From positions 1 to 46,397 of the forward strand of contig SVBN01000020.1 of the NCBI GenBank assembly GCA_015058875.1: DNA of 46,397 nucleotides, read 5' to 3'. Below the pieces are notes generated by a model, which had not been told where the DNA came from, made no database searches, and saw only the letters and a program-made list of their open reading frames with translations. The stretch comes from Erysipelotrichaceae bacterium (GTDB taxonomy: Bacteria > Bacillota_I > Bacilli_A > Erysipelotrichales > Erysipelotrichaceae). Position numbers and translations under genes: made by a program. How positions within the stretch are numbered: position 1 is the stretch's first letter; each line of letters opens with the position of its first letter. Shown here piece after piece: positions 28,164-46,397 of this stretch.

Positions 28164-29363
28164 TCATTGTGCCTTGAAATTATAAACCGGCTTCAGTATT
28201 TCAATCACATCCACGGTTTCATGCAGGGATGAGAGAATGCTTTCAATCGGCTTATATGCCATAGGCGCTTCATCCAGCGTACCGGTACTGATCGAGGTCG
28301 TATAGATGCCTGCCATGGCATCCCGGTACTCCTGCATGGAGAGCGTCTGCTTTGCGGCGGATCTGGACATCAGCCTGCCGGCACCGTGCGGTGCGGAATT
28401 ATTCCAGTCGGGATTTCCTTTTCCTCTTGCCAGAATGGATCCGTCTTTCATATTGACGGGGATCAGCACGATCTCGTTTTCATGCGCCGCGATTGCTCCT
28501 TTGCGCAGAATCATTTCATCTGTATCAATGTAGTTGTGAATGGTATGGAAGGCTTCTGCGGCAGATAGACCGGCTTCCTTCAGAATTGTTTCCGCAATAA
28601 CTTCCCGGTTCCGCTTCGCAAAATCCTGACAGATCCGGATATCATGCAGATAATCTTCGAATGCTTCGCCGTACAGCCAGCAGAGATCATCCGGGATTTC
28701 AGAAGCTCTGAATTCCTTTTTCAGCCGGTCCAGAGCGGAGGGAAGATCTTTTTCTTTTCCTGCGGCTTTATATTCTTCAATCAGTTTCTTCTGTTCCTCC
28801 TGCAGGACAGCTTTTCCTTTATGCAGCTGAACGGCGAGATCCTGGTAATACTCCGCTGCCTGCTTGCCGAGATTGCGGGAACCGGAGTGAACGACCAGAT
28901 AATATGTGCCGTCCTCTGAGCGTTCAAGCTCAATGAAGTGATTTCCGCCGCCGAGCGTGCCAAGAGATCGGGCCAGCCGGTCATGGTCTTTCAGGACGGA
29001 AAAGCACCGGAGATCCGACAGGTCAAACGGCTCTCTGATTTTCTCCCATACATTGAATCCGGACGGGACGAGATGGGCTGCCCGGTCGACTGCCGGAAGA
29101 TCGGGGTCTGTTCCGTTCAGGCGCACGCAGTACATGCCGCAGCCGATGTCCACTCCGACGATATTCGGAACAGCCCGGCCGGTGACGGTCATGGTTGTGC
29201 CGACGGTACAGCCTTTGCCGGCATGCACATCCGGCATGATCCGGACCTTGGAACCTTCCGCAAATGCACAGCTGCACATCCTCTGAATCTGACTGACTGC
29301 TTCGGGTTCGCATATTTCCGCATAGCAGACTGCGGTTGTATAAGTGCCTCTGATTTCGAACAT
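28164..29363 (-). CDS. rtcB: RtcB-family RNA ligase
   Basis: 399 residues; the ATG at 29363 is chosen because GGGAGAA lies 8 bases before it and MFEIRG is the normal opening. Metal-site motifs: MPDVHAGKGCTVGTT, GVDIGCGM, LGTLGGGNHFIEL (Cys, Asp, His ligands), and the guanylylated-His region with NSAPHGAGR. RtcB joins 2',3'-cyclic-phosphate or 3'-phosphate RNA ends to 5'-OH ends using GTP and Mn2+, serving RNA repair in bacteria. It lacks a neighbouring archease or RtcA gene. It is 60 bases behind a LacI-type regulator on the same strand. Confidence 0.93.
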   Translation of the reverse strand: MFEIRGTYTTAVCYAEICEPEAVSQIQRMCSCAFAEGSKVRIMPDVHAGKGCTVGTTMTVTGRAVPNIVGVDIGCGMYCVRLNGTDPDLPAVDRAAHLVPSGFNVWEKIREPFDLSDLRCFSVLKDHDRLARSLGTLGGGNHFIELERSEDGTYYLVVHSGSRNLGKQAAEYYQDLAVQLHKGKAVLQEEQKKLIEEYKAAGKEKDLPSALDRLKKEFRASEIPDDLCWLYGEAFEDYLHDIRICQDFAKRNREVIAETILKEAGLSAAEAFHTIHNYIDTDEMILRKGAIAAHENEIVLIPVNMKDGSILARGKGNPDWNNSAPHGAGRLMSRSAAKQTLSMQEYRDAMAGIYTTSISTGTLDEAPMAYKPIESILSSLHETVDVIEILKPVYNFKAQ

Positions 29364-29423
29364 ATGAATTCTCCCAATGCCATTATATGAAAAAAGCAGA
29401 GTGCATTGCACATCTGCCTGGAA

Positions 29424-30920: not shown

Positions 30921-32369
30921 TTATTTTGTCGGATCGTTTCCGAGAATGAACTTGCGGATATCGGCGCACAGCTCATGCACGTTGTCTTCGCCGATATAGA
31001 TCATATGACCGGAATTGTAGCCTTTCCAGAAAACTCTGTCCTTCGGCAGGCTGGCATGATCCAGTGTATGCCATACATATCCGAATTCCGTGCAGAGATC
31101 GAACCATCCGTTGGCGAAGAAGGTCCTCATGCCGGGTCTTCTCATCATTGCTTTTCTCAGCTGGTCGGCAGTTGTGCCCATCGGTGTTTCTCTCTTCCAG
31201 TCTTTGTAATACATGGACAGGCAGACATAATTTCTGTCGAGCTTCACATTCAGATGCGGCATCAGGTCGCCGAGCAGTGCGGAATAGAAATATGTTCCGT
31301 AGCGGTCGTCAGTCGCATCATCCCAGAGTCCTTCTTTTTCTTCCAGTACATCCGGTGCCAGCAGCGGTCTTGTCATTCTGCCGTCGTAGCGGGAAACACC
31401 CTTTCCCTGTGCTTTCAGGACTTCCTGACGGTAGGTGTTGTCATCGATCTTCAGGCCGTTTCTCAGCAGATATTCTTTGGAAACGCCGGTATAATATGTA
31501 ACCTTTTCAATCACATGTTCCTTCGCTTCTTCGGAAAGTGCTTCGCCTTTGTACAGCGCCAGCACATATTCCTCATCCGCCCATGCCTTGGCTTCCATCA
31601 CGAATTCGCTGACGGACTGGTCTGTCGGATGATTGTGGAACCAGTTGACGCCGGCGTAGGTCGGGAAGCCGATGACGGAAGGTTCAACATAGATTTCCCT
31701 GCCGAAATAATTGCCGACAGTGACGGTGTTGCCGATCATGACAATGCCGTCAAAGGATACGCCGTAGCATCTTTCCTTGCCGTTGGTTGCGGCAATGCCG
31801 GCGGCGGTGGCGGAACGTGTGCAGCCGTAGCTTTCACCGACCAGATATTTCGGGGAAAGCGCGCGGTTGTGCTTGCGGATCCACATTTCGATAAAGGAAA
31901 GCAGTGCTTCCGCATCTTCTTCGATGCCGAGGAAGTTTTTTCCTTCCTCTTCATCGATCAGGACGCCGTATCCTGTACCGACCGGATCGACCAGAACAAG
32001 ATCCGCGACATCCAGCAGGCAGTCGGGATTGTCGATGACTTCAAACGGTCCGAAGGCGCTCGGTCTGTCCGGCTCACCGTAGGTGATTCTTCTTGCGCCG
32101 AGGAATCCCGCGTGGACATACATGGAGGAACTGCCCGGGCCGCCGTTATAACCGAAAATAACCGGACGGTTTGCGGTGTCTTCCACATCGGAACGGAAAT
32201 AGGAATACGAGAAGATTGAAGCAATCGGCTTTCCGTCCTTTCCGTAGAATACATTGTCTTCACTGACGGTATGATAAGGGATTTCAACGCCGTTCAGCGT
32301 GATTTTTCCGTCGGACTCAAAGCGCTGGGGCTTGAACTCATCAGCACGGAAGCTTTCTGTTTTGTACAT
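30921..32369 (-). CDS. Serine carboxypeptidase-like (peptidase family S10) protein
   Basis: 482 residues from the ATG at 32369 (AAAGGAG upstream on the minus strand). S10 motifs: NGGPGSSSM (oxyanion hole), GESYG (catalytic Ser), and a C-terminal GYNSGHMIY (catalytic His), with the Asp probably in FFANGWFDLCTEF. No signal peptide or membrane helix is visible at the N-terminus (MYKTESFRADEFKPQRF), so it appears cytosolic, unlike vacuolar or secreted eukaryotic members. It may trim C-terminal residues from imported peptides. Confidence 0.88.
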   Translation of the reverse strand: MYKTESFRADEFKPQRFESDGKITLNGVEIPYHTVSEDNVFYGKDGKPIASIFSYSYFRSDVEDTANRPVIFGYNGGPGSSSMYVHAGFLGARRITYGEPDRPSAFGPFEVIDNPDCLLDVADLVLVDPVGTGYGVLIDEEEGKNFLGIEEDAEALLSFIEMWIRKHNRALSPKYLVGESYGCTRSATAAGIAATNGKERCYGVSFDGIVMIGNTVTVGNYFGREIYVEPSVIGFPTYAGVNWFHNHPTDQSVSEFVMEAKAWADEEYVLALYKGEALSEEAKEHVIEKVTYYTGVSKEYLLRNGLKIDDNTYRQEVLKAQGKGVSRYDGRMTRPLLAPDVLEEKEGLWDDATDDRYGTYFYSALLGDLMPHLNVKLDRNYVCLSMYYKDWKRETPMGTTADQLRKAMMRRPGMRTFFANGWFDLCTEFGYVWHTLDHASLPKDRVFWKGYNSGHMIYIGEDNVHELCADIRKFILGNDPTK

Positions 32370-32571
32370 ATGATTATTTTCTCCTTTGGTCACTATCATA
32401 CTACGCACATTGACTGCTGAAAAAGAAGATATCCTGTCTCCGCATGCAAAGTTCCGGGAACGGGGGAGTTCTCTGAAACAGGTTTCACATGGAAGGCAGG
32501 ATAATCCGCAGGACTGCCTGTATATCGGTGTGTGAACGGCGGCATGTCCTCAATTAAAGAAGGGGAGAAAA

Positions 32572-35752: not shown

Positions 35753-35781
35753 TTGAAAACAAAGCAGGAAACTGTTACATT
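35753..35781 (+). promoter_or_regulatory. Promoter of the macro-domain gene
   Basis: TTGAAA (35753-35758), 17 bases, TACATT (35776-35781), 24 bases before the ATG with GAAGGAAAG between. Confidence 0.6.
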
Positions 35782-35805: not shown

Positions 35806-36876
35806 ATGCCGCTGAAAATCATCCGCAATGACATTACCAAAGTACAGGCAGATGCGATCGTAAACACTGCCAACCCGCATCCCGTCATCGGCAGGGGGAC
35901 CGACAGTGCCGTCTATGAAGCTGCCGGCAGAGAACTGCTTCTGGAAGAAAGGAAAAAGATCGGAGATATTGCGGAGGGGAATGCCGCAATTACGCCGGCG
36001 TTTCATCTGGATGCGAAATATATCATCCATACCGTCAGTCCTGTCTGGTATGACGGGAACCGTCTGGAAACATATCTGCTTTCTTCCTGTTATACACAGT
36101 CCCTTGAGCTTGCGCTGAATCATGGCTGCGAAAGCATTGCTTTTCCGCTGCTTGCGGCAGGTTCCAATGCATTTCCGAATGATATTGCCCTGAAGACTGC
36201 ATTGGATACCATTCAGGACTTCCTGATGGATCATGAGATGGATGTGTATCTGGTGGTGCTGGACCGCTCCGCATATGAGCTTTCTTCCAGGATTTTCCAT
36301 GATGTCGCAAGCTATATCGAAGAGCATCAGGCAGCACAGGTATTCGCAAAGGAATATGCTTCCTCATGGCGCGACGAGATGGAGAACACGCAGGATCTGC
36401 GTCCAGCAGCGCCGTCTGCCGCAAAGCGTCCGGAACCCGGCAGTCATGAGAAGAAGCAGTCCGCATTACAGATCAGACCGGCGAAAAAGCCTTCCAAACC
36501 GTCTTTCAGCGATTGGATGGAATCGGTCCGGCTGCCGAAGAAGGAACAGACTTTCCAGGCGCGCCTGCTGAAGCTGATCGATGAATCCGGAGAGACCGAT
36601 CCGCAGATTTATAAACGGGCGAATATCGACCGCAAGCTGTTTGCCAAGATCAGGAAGGATGAAAACTACCGCCCCAGCCGCAAGACAGTCATTGCGCTGG
36701 CACTGGCGCTGCGGCTGAGCATGGACGATGCGGTGGATCTGCTTTCCCGGGCAGGCTTTGCGCTGTCTCCGGCCAGCACCTTTGATCTGATCATCCGCTA
36801 CTGCTTTGAACACAGGGTCTACAACATCATTGAGGTCAATTCCATCCTCTTCGGTTTTGATCAGGAAACGCTTTGA
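35806..36876 (+). CDS. Macro domain protein with C-terminal helical HTH-like domain
   Basis: 356 residues. Residues 1-175 are a macro domain: ADAIVNTANPHPVIGRGTDSAVYEAAG is the ADP-ribose loop 1 (glycines partly changed from the usual GGGVDG), and PLLAAGSNAFP is loop 2. Macro domains bind ADP-ribose and often remove it from proteins or nucleic acids. A Pro/Lys/Ala-rich linker (176-240) leads to a ~110-residue helical domain (FQARLLKLIDESGETDPQIYKRANIDRKLF, then RKTVIALALALRLSMDDAVDLL) that looks like a helix-turn-helix. I remember a similar C-terminal domain in other Firmicutes proteins, but not its function. First gene of the ADP-ribose cluster. Confidence 0.8.
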   Translation: MPLKIIRNDITKVQADAIVNTANPHPVIGRGTDSAVYEAAGRELLLEERKKIGDIAEGNAAITPAFHLDAKYIIHTVSPVWYDGNRLETYLLSSCYTQSLELALNHGCESIAFPLLAAGSNAFPNDIALKTALDTIQDFLMDHEMDVYLVVLDRSAYELSSRIFHDVASYIEEHQAAQVFAKEYASSWRDEMENTQDLRPAAPSAAKRPEPGSHEKKQSALQIRPAKKPSKPSFSDWMESVRLPKKEQTFQARLLKLIDESGETDPQIYKRANIDRKLFAKIRKDENYRPSRKTVIALALALRLSMDDAVDLLSRAGFALSPASTFDLIIRYCFEHRVYNIIEVNSILFGFDQETL

Positions 36877-36879
36877 AAT

Positions 36880-36903
36880 GTCGCCTGCGGGGCGACCTTT
36901 CCA
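36880..36903 (+). terminator. Weak hairpin after the macro-domain gene
   Basis: GTCGCC (36880-36885) / GGCGAC (36891-36896) then CTTTCC. The poor T-run suggests partial read-through into the vWA gene. Confidence 0.4.
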
Positions 36904-36948
36904 TTTTCCGGAACCGGTAATATGTCCTCAGAAAGAGAGGACAGACAG

Positions 36949-37602
36949 ATGAAAAAGAACTTTACGGAAATTATATTCATTCTTGACAGGAGCGGTTCCA
37001 TGTCGGGACTGGAGAAGGATACGATCGGAGGATACAACTCCTTCCTGAGGCGCCAGAAGAAAGAGGAAGGAACGGCAGTTGTTTCAACCGTGCTCTTCGA
37101 TGACTCGTGTGAGGTGCTTCATGACCGCATCCCGCTGGATCAGGTCCCGGAGATCACGGAGAGGGAATACTACGCGCGGGGATGCACGGCATTGCTCGAT
37201 GCGATCGGCGGAGCGATCTATCATATCGGCAATGTTCATAAATATGCCAGAGAGGAAGACCGCCCGGAAAAGACGATTGTCGTCATCACAACCGACGGCA
37301 TGGAGAACGCCAGCCGGCAGTATACCTATGACAGGATCCGCAGAATGGTAGAACGGCAGAAAGAAAAGTACGGATGGGAATTCCTGTTCCTCGGCGCCAA
37401 TATGGATGCGATTGCCGAAGCGGGAAGATTCGGAATTGATGCCGACAGATCCGTCAGCTATATTTCCGATCACATCGGAACAAAGAAAAACTACGCGGCA
37501 ATTTCCAGAGCGGTATCTCGGATGCGCGCCTGCAGCGCGCCGGTCGGGGCGGAATGGAAAGATGAAATAGAAGCGGATTATAAAGCAAGAAAGGGGAAGT
37601 AA
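36949..37602 (+). CDS. TerY-like von Willebrand factor A domain protein
   Basis: 217 residues from the ATG at 36949 (GAGAGGACAG upstream); an upstream ATG at 36922 is possible but has no ribosome site. A full MIDAS site is present: D13-R-S-G-S17, T80 (GCTALLD) and D116 (TTDGMEN), so it should bind a metal and a partner acidic residue. It is cytosolic, with no signal or membrane segment. TerY-type vWA proteins accompany tellurite/phage-stress (ter) genes, but no TerD-like gene is in the window. It ends 1 base before the ADP-ribosylglycohydrolase start, so the two probably act together. Confidence 0.87.
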   Translation: MKKNFTEIIFILDRSGSMSGLEKDTIGGYNSFLRRQKKEEGTAVVSTVLFDDSCEVLHDRIPLDQVPEITEREYYARGCTALLDAIGGAIYHIGNVHKYAREEDRPEKTIVVITTDGMENASRQYTYDRIRRMVERQKEKYGWEFLFLGANMDAIAEAGRFGIDADRSVSYISDHIGTKKNYAAISRAVSRMRACSAPVGAEWKDEIEADYKARKGK

Positions 37603-37603
37603 T

Positions 37604-38419
37604 ATGTTCGGAGCAATTTTGGGAGATATGATCGGAGCACCGTATGAATTCAATAATATTCATACCGAGGACTTCACTTTGTTTACATCCCGGACGGAAT
37701 TCACGGATGATACCGTCATGACGCTCGCGGTTGCGGACGCATTGATGGAAGCGTACGGGAAAGATGAGACGGAGATAAAATACCAGCTTGTCAGGAAAAT
37801 GCAGGCATACGGAAAAAAGTGGCCGCATGCCGGATACGGCGGGATGTTCGCTCAGTGGCTGAGAGAAAAATATCCGGAGCCGTACAACAGCTTCGGCAAC
37901 GGAAGCGCCATGCGTGTCAGTCCTGCCGGATGGCTGTATGACACACTGGAAGAAACACTGCAGAAAGCACAATGGACTGCGGAAGTCACGCACAATCATC
38001 CGGAAGGAATCAAAGGAGCGCAGGCTGCGGCCGCATGCATCTGGATGGCACGGAATCAGTACGGCAAAGATGAGATCATGGCTTATGTCACGGAAACATT
38101 CGGATATGATCTGACCGAGACAACCGATTCCATACGGAAGTGGTATTTTTTCAATGAGACATGCCAGAAGACGGTTCCCCAGGCAATCCGCGTATTCTAT
38201 GAGAGCGGCAGCTTTGAAGAAACCATCCGCAAATCGGTATCGCTCGGCGGCGACAGCGATACACTGGCGTGCATTGCCGGCAGTATTGCGGAAGCGTATT
38301 ACGGCGTTCCGGAGGAAATGAAGCAGGAGGCTTTGAAGCGTCTGGATCCGAGGCTGATCACAGTGCTGGAGAAATTTGAAGCATTCCTGTCGGAAAAGAA
38401 CGGAAAGAAATCAGGGTAA
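37604..38419 (+). CDS. ADP-ribosylglycohydrolase (DraG/ARH family)
   Basis: 271 residues. ARH metal and substrate motifs are intact: GDMIGAPYE (8-16), TDDT (34-37), GNGSAMRVSPAGW, HNHPEG and LGGDSDT (214-220). These hold two Mg2+ or Mn2+ ions and the ribose. The family removes ADP-ribose from Arg, Ser or other acceptors, or cleaves related N- or O-glycosides. It follows the vWA gene by one base, and the ribosome site AAAGGGG lies inside that gene. No nitrogenase genes occur here, so the classic DraG role does not apply. Confidence 0.9.
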   Translation: MFGAILGDMIGAPYEFNNIHTEDFTLFTSRTEFTDDTVMTLAVADALMEAYGKDETEIKYQLVRKMQAYGKKWPHAGYGGMFAQWLREKYPEPYNSFGNGSAMRVSPAGWLYDTLEETLQKAQWTAEVTHNHPEGIKGAQAAAACIWMARNQYGKDEIMAYVTETFGYDLTETTDSIRKWYFFNETCQKTVPQAIRVFYESGSFEETIRKSVSLGGDSDTLACIAGSIAEAYYGVPEEMKQEALKRLDPRLITVLEKFEAFLSEKNGKKSG

Positions 38420-38420
38420 T

Positions 38421-38480
38421 CAGTCAGAACGATTCTTTCAGATACACATCTGCGGCTGAATGTGCATAGGACTCTGACTG
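38421..38480 (+). repeat. Inverted repeat between ADP-ribosylglycohydrolase and hydrolase genes
   Basis: CAGTCAGA (38421-38428) pairs perfectly with TCTGACTG (38473-38480), enclosing CACAT and ATGTG. There is no T-run, so it is a possible RNA structure or binding site rather than a terminator. Confidence 0.4.
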
Positions 38481-38510
38481 ATATCAGTAAAAAAACGGAG
38501 GATAATGCAT

Positions 38511-39269
38511 ATGCATAAATATTATGAAATCAATGAAAAAGGAAATAATATCCGCTGCAAGGTGTATTGCAAAGACAGGCCTGCGGCCCGGAGGGCGGTT
38601 CTTTACTGCACGGGATTTGCCGGCCACAGGGATAACGGTGCGGCGGAAAAATTTGCGGAAAGTGTATTTTCCAGATATAAAGATGTCATTGTAATTGTGT
38701 TCAACTGGCCTTCACACGGCGATGATGTAAAGAAAAAGCTGAACCTGGAAGACTGCAGCACATATCTTGAGCTTGTGATTGAGGATATGAAAACCAGATT
38801 CGGATGCACGGAACTGTACTCATATGCGACCAGTTTCGGCGGATATCTGATCCTGAAATATATCTCCGAACACGGAAATCCGTTCCGGAAGATATCGCTG
38901 CGGTGCCCGGCAGTATACATGTACGACGTGCTGACGCGGTTTATCATGAAAAATGACGAATATGACCGGATCATGAAAGGGAAGGACGTGCAGGTCGGAT
39001 TCGACCGGAAAATCATCGTAACGAAGGCATTGCTGGACGAACTGCAGGCCAATGATATCCGGGAAAGAGATTTCCTGGAATATGCGGATGATATTCTCAT
39101 CCTGCACGGAACAAAGGATGAAGTTGTGCCGTTTGAGAGCTGCCGGGAATTTGCGGAGAACAACGTGATTGAATTGATCCCGGTTGAGAACGCTGATCAC
39201 CGTTTTCAGAATCCTGCCTGCATGAGTCTGGCAAACAGACAGACGATGCAGTTCTTCGGTTTTCAGTAA
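38511..39269 (+). CDS. Alpha/beta hydrolase within the ADP-ribose cluster
   Basis: 252 residues from the ATG at 38511; the ATG at 38505 is too close to GGAGG. The nucleophile elbow is ATSFGG with S108 (an Ala replaces the first Gly of GxSxG). The Asp is in HGTKDEVVP and the His in NADHRF, so the triad is complete. YCTGFAGHRDNGAAEKF forms the oxyanion region. Looks like a cytosolic esterase, thioesterase or peptidase. In this setting it could remove ester-linked groups, but its substrate is unknown. Confidence 0.8.
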   Translation: MHKYYEINEKGNNIRCKVYCKDRPAARRAVLYCTGFAGHRDNGAAEKFAESVFSRYKDVIVIVFNWPSHGDDVKKKLNLEDCSTYLELVIEDMKTRFGCTELYSYATSFGGYLILKYISEHGNPFRKISLRCPAVYMYDVLTRFIMKNDEYDRIMKGKDVQVGFDRKIIVTKALLDELQANDIRERDFLEYADDILILHGTKDEVVPFESCREFAENNVIELIPVENADHRFQNPACMSLANRQTMQFFGFQ

Positions 39270-39320
39270 ACCGCATGCCCGGCAGATTCGGAATATCGGA
39301 AACAGAACAGGAGGAAGAGC

Positions 39321-40580
39321 ATGTCGGAAAGAAGAAAGAGACTGAAAGAGATTTTCCGGGATACGCAGAAACAGTATGCCGGCAATGAAAAACTGCAGAA
39401 GGATGCATTGTACACATATGAGCATAACGAGCTGATCCCGGAAAACGATTATCCGCAGATCAGAAGGATATACCGTCCGGGAAAAGTCAGCGTGAGTGAA
39501 GAGCGCACATTCGAGTGTGCCATGCGGCTGATGAAAGAACATCCGGAATATCATATTGCGGTGCTGAATTTTGCGTCTTCCGTCCATCCGGGCGGCGGCG
39601 TAATCGAAGGCGCATCCGCTCAGGAGGAATGCCTCTGCCGCTGCAGCACATTGTATGCCTCGCTGAATCAGCCGGATATGATGAAACAGTATTATGTCCC
39701 CAACCGGGATGCCATGAATCCGCTGGCCAATGACGGAATCATCTTTTCTCCCGCCGTTACGGTATTCAAATCGGATACGGAATATCCGGAGATCCTGCCG
39801 GAAGAGAAATGGATTCATGCGGATGTGCTGACCTGCGCCGCCCCGAATCTGCGCAGCTGCGGGATTCAGGTGACGGACCGGCAGCTGTATGAGATTCATC
39901 TTCAAAGAGCAGAACACATTCTGCATACGGCAGCCGCGAAGGGATGCGATGCACTCGTGCTCGGGGCGTTCGGATGCGGCGCGTTTGCCAACAATCCGGA
40001 AACCGTTGCCCGGGCATACCGGGATGCGCTGATGGATTACGCATCTTATTTTGAGGAGATTGTCTTCGCGGTTTACTGCACGGACGAAGCGCGTCAGAAT
40101 TACCATGCTTTTGCGGACGAACTGGCGGACTGGAACAGCAGGTACGGCTGTGATGACCGGCTGCTGTGGAAGGCAATGCAGATCGCATGCAGGGCGCATG
40201 AAGGACAGAAAGACAAAGGCGGCAATCCCTACTTCCTGCATCCCGTATTTGTTTCGCAGCATCTGGAAACAATTGCAGAGAAGATCGTGGGACTGCTTCA
40301 TGATGTTGTGGAAGATACGGATATAACGATTGAGGATCTCAGAAAGGAAGGCTTCCCGGAACATGTTCTGGAAGCGGTGGATACCATCACAAAGAAAGAC
40401 GGTGTATCCTATGAAGAATACATTGAAGGCGTGATGAATAATCCGATCGCAAGAGCAGTCAAGATCCAGGATGTCCGGCATAATTCCGATATCTCCAGAA
40501 TCCCGCATCCGACAGAGCATGATCTGAAGCGGCTGGAAAAATACCGGAAGACATTGAAAAAGCTGGAAGGCAGGGAATAA
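39321..40580 (+). CDS. Microbial PARG-type glycohydrolase fused to a RelA/SpoT-like HD phosphohydrolase
   Basis: 419 residues. Residues ~1-265 match the TIGR02452 microbial poly(ADP-ribose) glycohydrolase group. The catalytic signature GGG-x7-QEE is present at 91-103 (HPGGGVIEGASAQEECLCR), with LTCAAPNLR and LGAFGCGAFANNPETVA downstream as ADP-ribose-binding loops. Residues ~282-410 match the HD hydrolase of RelA/SpoT/Mesh1 enzymes: H293 (AHEGQKDKGGNPYFLHP), H327-D328 (LLHDVVEDT) and D384 (KIQDVRHN), the full metal set. That domain removes pyrophosphate from (p)ppGpp or a related nucleotide. RBS GGAGGAAG. Fusion of these two activities is not something I recognise as described. Confidence 0.85.
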   Translation: MSERRKRLKEIFRDTQKQYAGNEKLQKDALYTYEHNELIPENDYPQIRRIYRPGKVSVSEERTFECAMRLMKEHPEYHIAVLNFASSVHPGGGVIEGASAQEECLCRCSTLYASLNQPDMMKQYYVPNRDAMNPLANDGIIFSPAVTVFKSDTEYPEILPEEKWIHADVLTCAAPNLRSCGIQVTDRQLYEIHLQRAEHILHTAAAKGCDALVLGAFGCGAFANNPETVARAYRDALMDYASYFEEIVFAVYCTDEARQNYHAFADELADWNSRYGCDDRLLWKAMQIACRAHEGQKDKGGNPYFLHPVFVSQHLETIAEKIVGLLHDVVEDTDITIEDLRKEGFPEHVLEAVDTITKKDGVSYEEYIEGVMNNPIARAVKIQDVRHNSDISRIPHPTEHDLKRLEKYRKTLKKLEGRE

Positions 40581-40584
40581 TCAG

Positions 40585-40610
40585 AAGGAACAGCGCGGGC
40601 TGTTCCTTTT
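40585..40610 (+). terminator. Terminator of the ADP-ribose cluster
   Basis: AAGGAACAGC (40585-40594) and GCTGTTCCTT (40599-40608) pair perfectly over 10 bp with a 4-base loop, then TT. Confidence 0.85.
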
Positions 40611-45394: not shown

Positions 45395-46397
45395 CATTTT
45401 GTAACGCTCTTTTCAAAGAATTAGTTGATAAATGAGAAAATGCCATAATGATATTCTCCATACGCAGTAAACAAATTGATAGGTAATGGAATCCGGGTGA
45501 TTTCATTACATCTGAAAGGAATCTGTTCCATCATTGTGGTCATATACGCTTCAGATTTCCACTTTCTCATATCCAGTGTGTATTTCAACTTCTTGCGCAG
45601 CACCAGCCAGTCCAGATATCCCTGAAGATGCCGTGTACTGATTCCACGCTTCCATCTGATCAGACTTTTCAGTTCTGTATGAAGTTCATCGGTTGAAGAT
45701 ACCGTTTTACCACTCGGCGTTGCAGTTCCGTTTGAAGGAATTATTTCACTTTTGAGTTTATTATCACTCACGAAGGTCTGAATGCTGTGGCTGTCATCGC
45801 TGATAATCGTTGAGATGAGAGAGAAATGATCACGGAAACGATTAAGAATATCTGCACTCTCGCGTCCAAGACCTCCGACTTTATAAAGAATGTTGTCGTT
45901 TTCGTCGATTGCCGTCACAATACACACTTTGTGATGATTGATCCCGCGCAGTTTACTGGATGATGTGCTTTTCCTGGATTTTCCTCTATGTTTGGAATAG
46001 CGCGGCATATTCTTTGGTTTCGTTCCTTTCAGATTGATCGATGTATATGTCGGATCCAGCTCGATATTTCCACTGAGAACCACTTCATTTTGAATCTTGG
46101 AGGCTGCTTTATAAAGCTTGTGTCTCATATTGAAGCATGTTGTCTTTGACAAACCGGTGGCCACACTCTGCTGTTCTAATGTAAGGCAGTTTAGTTCACC
46201 TGCGATAAATGTCGACCATTTGTCGAAACTCGTCTTTGAATGGGTAAACATTGTACCTGTGGTTGCCATGAATACACTTTTGCAGTCTTTACATCTGTAT
46301 TTCTGTCTGTGGTGAGGATTGAATCCGTTTTTGACAAATCTTTCGGATCCGCAATGCGGACAGCACGTGACGTGGGCTGATACATTTTCATAGTTTG
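45395..46397 (-). mobile_element. Part of an IS1595-family insertion sequence
   Basis: Contains the transposase above. The inner end should lie between the IIB terminator and 45420 (GTAACGCTCTTTTCAAAG is a candidate end), but the other end is outside the window, so inverted repeats and target duplication cannot be checked. Confidence 0.5.
45421..46397 (-). CDS. IS1595/ISXO2-like transposase, 5' end outside window
   Basis: The frame is open to the window edge on the minus strand and ends at 45421, giving at least 325 residues. The visible N-terminus is a zinc ribbon (CCPHCGSERFVKNGFNPHHRQ, then YRCKDC), followed by a helix-turn-helix-like part (LTLEQQSVATGLSKTTCFNMRHKLY). The DDE-type catalytic core has IELDPTY (usual form DETY), IISDDSHS and LHTELKSLIRWKRGISTRHLQGYLDW. 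The internal ATG at 46269 is not the real start, since it lies after the zinc ribbon. Whether the copy is intact cannot be told. Confidence 0.82.
   Translation of the reverse strand, partial: NYENVSAHVTCCPHCGSERFVKNGFNPHHRQKYRCKDCKSVFMATTGTMFTHSKTSFDKWSTFIAGELNCLTLEQQSVATGLSKTTCFNMRHKLYKAASKIQNEVVLSGNIELDPTYTSINLKGTKPKNMPRYSKHRGKSRKSTSSSKLRGINHHKVCIVTAIDENDNILYKVGGLGRESADILNRFRDHFSLISTIISDDSHSIQTFVSDNKLKSEIIPSNGTATPSGKTVSSTDELHTELKSLIRWKRGISTRHLQGYLDWLVLRKKLKYTLDMRKWKSEAYMTTMMEQIPFRCNEITRIPLPINLFTAYGEYHYGIFSFIN

Follow-up and report, generated by a model that had tools for sequence, protein, structure and literature searches.

A macro-HTH/vWA core with variable putative ADP-ribose-removing enzymes in an Erysipelotrichaceae bacterium: a modular gene cluster and its possible role

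The stretch analysed here, called the window, is the whole of contig SVBN01000020.1 (46,397 nucleotides) of an Erysipelotrichaceae bacterium (GCA_015058875.1), whose genome comprises 3.03 Mb in 125 contigs. Positions 35806-40580 contain five open reading frames (ORFs), all on the plus strand. The ORF list, Pfam and NCBIfam identify them as a macro-HTH (helix-turn-helix) gene, a vWA gene, an ADP-ribosylglycohydrolase of the ARH/DraG type, an alpha/beta hydrolase and a PARG-HD fusion. The intergenic gaps are 72, 1, 85 and 51 bases when the vWA start is placed at 36949. An earlier note on this DNA had described five same-strand ORFs with these domains, a gap of 1 base between vWA and ARH and an intact metal-ion-dependent adhesion site (MIDAS) in the vWA, and all of this is borne out by the ORF list, the domain searches and the reading of motifs. 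The cluster is modular. The macro-HTH and vWA genes are its conserved core, ARH is a recurrent component, and PARG, HD and a polymerase pair seen in relatives are occasional ones.

The macro-HTH gene (35806..36876, +) encodes a MacroD/YmdB-type macro domain (residues 1-165; Pfam E 2e-28) with the motifs NTAN and GRGTD, followed by a Cro/C1-like HTH with two extra helices (approximately residues 247-353). Taken alone, the macro part is YmdB-like in comparison with solved structures, and the YmdB family carries the annotation O-acetyl-ADP-ribose deacetylase. The macro domain scores 88.7 bits against the cut-off of 272 for the NCBIfam protein-ADP-ribose hydrolase. We propose the protein as a candidate ADP-ribose-responsive regulator. 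The HTH (window 36550-36873) also matches the C-terminal end of phrog_4031 (3e-5), a large phage family of 626 positions and unknown function.

The vWA gene (36949..37602, +) is the core partner of macro-HTH. Its ORF is open from 36922 too, and the ATG at 36949, 7 nt 3' of AGAGAGGA, is the more likely start. The match to Pfam is weak (VWA_CoxE, 23.2 bits, under the gathering score of 26.4), and a profile of the protein found no match among solved structures by sequence. The MIDAS can nevertheless be read as DRSGS, TALLD and TDG. Its positions are invariant in 25 aligned sequences, and invariant or at least 90% conserved in 35, the window included each time. The protein matches the phage family phrog_7371 (E 1e-59). 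With regard to TerY/Ter stress systems, the Pfam search of the cluster proteins gave no vWA-TerF match for it, and a more distant vWA, that of locus L162 (8397-9620), matches a vWA-TerF-like family above the cut-off. The C-terminal part of the L162 protein also has weak matches to retropepsin-like aspartyl proteases (about 0.001, below cut-off). The vWA of L159 (10079-11428) has a similar tail with no retropepsin match, and both genes adjoin ARH genes.

The ARH gene (37604..38419, +) matches Pfam ADP_ribosyl_GH (1e-40), has ARH3-like proteins as its closest solved relatives (2e-18) and carries the motifs TDDT and GDSDT. The alpha/beta hydrolase (38505..39269, +) matches Pfam at about 1e-7 and shows the Ser-Asp-His motifs TSFGG, DEVVP and ADH. 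Which motif residues are catalytic is known from the respective families. The PARG-HD gene (39321..40580, +) joins a bacterial PARG (approximately residues 1-270) to an HD domain of the small-alarmone-hydrolase type (approximately 280-419). The PARG half matches Pfam PARG_cat_microb (6e-34), has the solved relative 3sig (E 6e-34) and scores 176 bits with TIGR02452 against a cut-off of 50. By profile score and by its GGG-QEE motif it is a bacterial PARG (PF10021/TIGR02452). The HD half matches Pfam HD_4 (2e-6) and carries FLHP, HDVVED and KIQDVRHN. Its top solved relative is 7smg, a '(p)ppApp hydrolase' (E 7e-36, 126.6 bits), followed by RelA/SpoT chains at 52 bits or less. This likeness suggests a further type of substrate for the HD half.

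The earlier note counted three unrelated ADP-ribose folds in the cluster. There are only two, because the catalytic domain of PARG itself belongs to the macrodomain superfamily; PMC11833690 places it there too.

The conservation of the cluster was followed in 115 genomes of the family, with the window counted in every positional tally. A macro-HTH match is present in 67 of these genomes (macro-only matches included), a vWA match in 43, an ARH match in 40 (weak ones included) and, among the matches listed, a PARG match in 6. One of three genomes of the same genus has the vWA. PARG is rare in the class as well (8 of 296 genomes). The positional tallies used 40 macro-HTH rows (pieces merged, macro domains lacking an HTH dropped, 9 HTH-only genes kept separate), 30 ARH rows (weak or partial ones dropped, split matches merged) and 31 HD rows (long RelA/SpoT proteins and weaker rows dropped). 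Of the 48 vWA matches, 38 are no more than 500 bp from a gene for macro-HTH or for HTH alone, and 33 of the 40 macro-HTH genes have a vWA equally near. The loci named here with L numbers include the best 80 of at least 591 confirmed ones, mostly from Clostridia such as Lachnospiraceae and Oscillospiraceae. Seventy-one of the 80 extend 1300 bp or more upstream of their vWA, and an HTH gene lies within 500 bp of the vWA in 52 of them (50 with a macro domain) and within 2 kb in 61.

Strong ARH matches lie near this core in 12 of 30 cases within 2 kb and in 14 of 30 within 5 kb. A simple binomial estimate for the 12, with a 5 kb margin, is approximately 5e-19, which serves as a guide only since the genomes are related. 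Within 3 kb in the 80 named loci, ARH is found in 14, PARG in 3 and HD in 1. Among the three PARGs, that of L223 is a 72-residue fragment and that of L233 an apparently interrupted PARG-ARH-like ORF. On a tree of 122 distinct vWA sequences, in which one species may appear twice, the 21 ARH-linked sequences need at least 19 changes, so the ARH link has been gained or lost many times. The grouping exceeds chance for macro-HTH, vWA and ARH. The co-conservation that the earlier note set as its check holds for macro-HTH and vWA and partly for ARH; PARG and HD follow in fewer loci and weakly, and the alpha/beta hydrolase not at all. No other profiled locus contains this hydrolase, both profile matches being the window gene itself, entered twice; it is probably a passenger. 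The recurring core is macro-HTH/vWA and not the TIGR02452-HD fusion, whose neighbourhoods the earlier note proposed to search. Among the matches listed from the 115 family and 392 phylum genomes (overlapping sets), no second protein spans PARG and HD, and a pattern match for the fusion found none in viral contigs.

Relatives show the same components in other arrangements. A fusion of ARH with vWA occurs in L123, and in L126 ARH is joined to SseB with a macro match just under the cut-off. PARG-ARH fusions are present in L165 (8246-10453) and L166 (3723-5861), the latter with an XRE-HD gene directly upstream. L186 carries macro-HTH, vWA and PARG; L205 has the order macro-HTH, HD, ARH, vWA; and ARH, PARG and macro genes follow one another in L280, a locus of a different family within the class. 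In L129 and L131 an HD gene directly upstream adjoins macro-HTH and is overlapped by what we take to be a DUF5131-like (Gp37/Gp68-like) protein (7180-7914 in L129). By reading of the proteins, PARG adjoins one or two Sir2-like genes in L274, L278 and L279, a possible writer-eraser set distinct from the cluster, and a NudC-like gene in L273.

The module is also present in phages. The complete phage record PV036457, from human faeces, carries macro-HTH, a 154-residue protein lacking any Pfam match, vWA and HD (L292, 4423-7302), flanked by a ResIII helicase gene and HsdM-/HsdS-type genes. Macro-HTH and vWA also occur on a further phage scaffold, and a PARG or an HD on two more. Among the viral-contig loci from IMG/VR, vWA is near macro-HTH in 13 of 20 and ARH in 7 of 20; some of these contigs may be prophage or include host DNA, and the main match of L301 lies outside the stretch examined.

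The cluster was described earlier as an eraser-rich set with no writer. For the cluster itself this stands, as none of the five proteins matches an ADP-ribosyltransferase or sirtuin family in Pfam or NCBIfam. For the genome it is not established, one sirtuin being encoded on another contig. DarT is absent from the Pfam matches of the cluster and was not found in its own genome, in a search whose control was positive in 1 of 14. An ADP-ribosyltransferase search of the genome left its controls unmatched too and has no bearing on the presence of such enzymes. No writer was recognised in 24 recurrent neighbour families of relatives, which were judged on their first 60 residues and for the most part not searched further.

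Signals around the genes are few. An inverted repeat (GAAATGTCGCC/GGCGACCTTTC; 36875..36901, +) in the macro-vWA gap may form a weak terminator- or attenuator-like hairpin. A stem-loop with a perfect 10-bp stem and a short T run (40585..40608, +) is a candidate end of the run, ahead of a pyruvate kinase gene; the terminator scan scored it as terminator-like on the minus strand only. Terminator-like sites across the region number 5, against 5.1 in shuffles, and hairpin function gains no evidence from this. Promoter-like sites number 12 against 5.4 (sd 2.7) in shuffles. Several are intragenic and they are not counted as evidence; this applies equally to the one at 35753-35781, immediately upstream of macro-HTH. 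Near the contig end, an ORF (45421-46269, -) appears transposase-like by eye and has no Pfam match at 1e-5.

Several published systems resemble the cluster. PMC9503650 predicts writer-free, ARG-centred operons that counter viral ADP-ribosylation. These have variable modules, an extra macro domain, vWA, SseB or TY chaperones, regulators of the Nudix-HTH or WYL-HTH kind in more than 42% of systems (not universally) and a coupled phosphatase, including the alarmone-type HD, in a little over 55%. The cluster is alike in its ARH with no coupled transferase, its sensor-HTH regulator, its vWA (with SseB in the relative L126), its alarmone-related HD phosphatase, its extra macro domain and its variable modules. 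It differs in that the sensor is a macro domain rather than Nudix or WYL, in that ARH is an accessory to a macro-HTH/vWA core, and in its host, a member of the Bacillota, where that paper names actinobacteria, planctomycetes and proteobacteria. The abbreviation PARG is absent from its main text. The cluster is a Bacillota variant of this published prediction, with a macro sensor. Among the papers listed by searches of an open-access library, from which most subscription titles are missing, we recognised no description of the macro-HTH/vWA core, few of them having been read. DarTG toxin-antitoxin systems differ in having DarT adjacent, which the cluster lacks. In SirTM/Zn-macro operons a macro domain likewise stands in an ADP-ribosylation context; the cluster has no sirtuin, and its macro domain falls far short of the protein-ADP-ribose hydrolase cut-off given above.

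Single components also have published counterparts. A bacterial-type PARG like that of the cluster protects in vivo against RhsP2, an RNA ADP-ribosylating toxin (PMC11833690). Neither 'vwa' nor 'hd domain' occurs in that paper, and the parts consulted mention no HD fusion and no macro-HTH/vWA partners. The HD half shares its motif set and its highest similarity with Aph1 and the small alarmone hydrolases (7smg; PMC12226406, PMC11782079). Those act as immunity proteins or antitoxins beside their toxin, whereas here the domain is fused to PARG and a synthetase is not in the cluster. Aph1 hydrolyses pppApp to ATP, and cross-protection was mostly partial in its assay (PMC12226406). The antitoxin aTfaRel, a small alarmone hydrolase, promiscuously neutralises the products of toxSAS enzymes (PMC11782079), and a toxSAS that pyrophosphorylates tRNA ends is reported (PMC11559606). 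The MuF toxin Bxa, with ADP-ribosyltransferase activity, is countered by the ARH-type immunity protein BAH, and another MuF toxin, a (p)ppApp synthetase, is countered by a hydrolase as its immunity protein (PMC11699363). The ARH of the cluster would likewise reverse ADP-ribosylation; the cognate toxin is adjacent there and none is seen here. Because these two MuF toxins have an ARH and a (p)ppApp hydrolase as immunity proteins, a single operon holding both antidotes is plausible, short of proof.

The reading that we prefer, at somewhat under an even chance, is that of an inducible operon that reverses foreign ADP-ribosylation under the control of macro-HTH as an ADP-ribose-responsive regulator. 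The macro-HTH would be repressor-like, and its macro domain would bind ADP-ribose, either free or in an adduct. Once cell molecules are ADP-ribosylated by a foreign toxin or by an enzyme of a phage, repression would be lifted by this ligand, and the genes of the run may then be transcribed together. The vWA could bind modified or misfolded targets or act as a Mg-dependent scaffold for the erasers. The ARH would take ADP-ribose off proteins or phosphates, and the PARG half would take off O-linked ADP-ribose, for example at RNA 2'-OH groups or 5'-phosphate ends. The HD half would take 3'-pyrophosphate off products of adenosine, for instance (p)ppApp or a tRNA end that has been pyrophosphorylated. 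Since its HD half is most like a (p)ppApp hydrolase, the fusion may combine the removal of two kinds of toxin product. In a stricter form, PARG-HD would be a bifunctional eraser acting on ribose hydroxyls, PARG stripping ADP-ribose from the RNA 2'-OH and HD the 3'-pyrophosphate from (p)ppApp or tRNA 3' ends. It would sit in an antidote module borne by Bacillota and phages whose transcription factor senses through a macro domain and not Nudix or WYL, which would make macro-HTH a type of ADP-ribose-responsive regulator. This stricter form is speculative, and we hold it to be unlikely rather than remote.

The operon reading draws on the recurrence of the core, on the repeated addition and fusion of erasers, on the phage copies, among them that of PV036457 between restriction-modification genes, on the likeness of the HD half to 7smg and on the published operons and immunity proteins described above. 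A number of results weigh against it. The HTH call consists of a below-cut-off Pfam match and a model. No palindromic operator is shared among 100 upstream regions (the best arm pair is present in 3, and shuffles reach 2). In the family genomes, 18 of 30 ARH matches are more than 2 kb, and 28 of 31 HD matches more than 5 kb, from the core, and the complete five-gene set was met at this locus alone. No PADLOC match was obtained for the five window proteins at 0.01. At 1e-10, PADLOC families number 98 near the core and 80 at a distance, no clear excess, for 140 proteins each, drawn at random from 225 at most two genes from the core and from 402 at least five genes away; the comparison is rough because the output counts families and not proteins. 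A comparison with L186, a locus of Solobacterium sp. RGIG2523 whose vWA is a close relative, counts on the other side, in favour of the operon reading: identity is 86% for an S10-like peptidase (30921-32408 in the window, beside the vWA in L186) and 79% for a TtcA-like protein, but 71% for vWA, 58% for macro-HTH and 49% for PARG. The peptidase also suggests an Erysipelotrichales-like gut bacterium as the source of the window. Rapid divergence of the module suits a conflict role and does not decide it; alone it is weak evidence, because the RluA-like protein of L186 also reaches just 48% in its best match, which is perhaps not an ortholog.

A Y-family polymerase gene with a YolD-like gene lies beside the module or between macro-HTH and vWA in five of the 80 named loci (L192, L198, L204, L210, L260) and in two of the 20 viral ones (L298, L309). 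The Pfam IMS match was checked in the polymerases of L192, L198, L260 and L298; the YolD of L198 is just below the Pfam cut-off, and those of L204 and L298 lack a Pfam match and were grouped by similarity. The pair suits a DNA-damage setting or common mobile elements. It weakens the operon reading, since repair of DNA lesions would account for it no less well: instead of reversing protein or RNA toxins, the module might clear ADP-ribose from DNA or take part in the answer to damage, next to translesion synthesis. In keeping with such a role, DNA damage induces the PARG operon of D. radiodurans and SCO6735 (PMC11833690). The small number of loci with the pair, its absence from the window and the chance that it shares mobile elements with the module (L260 has a relaxase gene downstream) make this improbable. 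A role in the cell's own RNA repair, with the erasers freeing RNA ends, or by-products of tRNA processing, from leftover ADP-ribose and phosphate, could draw on the D. radiodurans PARG, which PMC11833690 places with an RNA/DNA ligase and an HD-kinase protein, and on an RtcB-type RNA ligase in the window (28164-29411, -). As the latter is on the opposite strand and approximately 6 kb from the cluster, we regard this as very unlikely.

The phage copies could instead mean that the module came from phages as a counter-defence, one that strips away signals or marks of ADP-ribose or (p)ppApp produced by the host. The complete gut phage with macro-HTH, vWA and HD and the vWA and ARH counts in viral contigs agree with that origin. 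Chromosomal copies are nevertheless widespread across genera, the IMG/VR contigs carry the caveat given above, and restriction-modification neighbours in the phage suit defence equally, so that counter-defence seems quite improbable. The module might also be a metabolic sensor: macro-HTH would detect O-acetyl-ADP-ribose or ADP-ribose arising as the cell turns over its own NAD, with the enzymes recycling the ligand. This would accord with the single sirtuin of the genome and the YmdB-like macro domain. The vWA is patchy (43 of 115 family genomes and one of three in the genus) and the accessory erasers turn over, which does not look like housekeeping, and we think this a slim prospect. Finally, macro-HTH and vWA might form a unit alone, with ARH, hydrolase and PARG-HD as neighbours having no joint function. 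The single occurrence of the whole set, the non-recurrent hydrolase and the location of most HD matches elsewhere speak for it; the repeated adjacency or fusion of ARH, PARG and HD, both to the core and among themselves, in different genera, speaks against it, and we consider it unlikely.

ADP-ribosylating and (p)ppApp-making toxins are common, and toxin-free operons that undo such damage are largely predictions. The module described here offers a compact, testable case in common gut Bacillota and in phages. It also offers a candidate ADP-ribose-sensing regulator and, in the fused enzyme, a possible bridge between two toxin chemistries.

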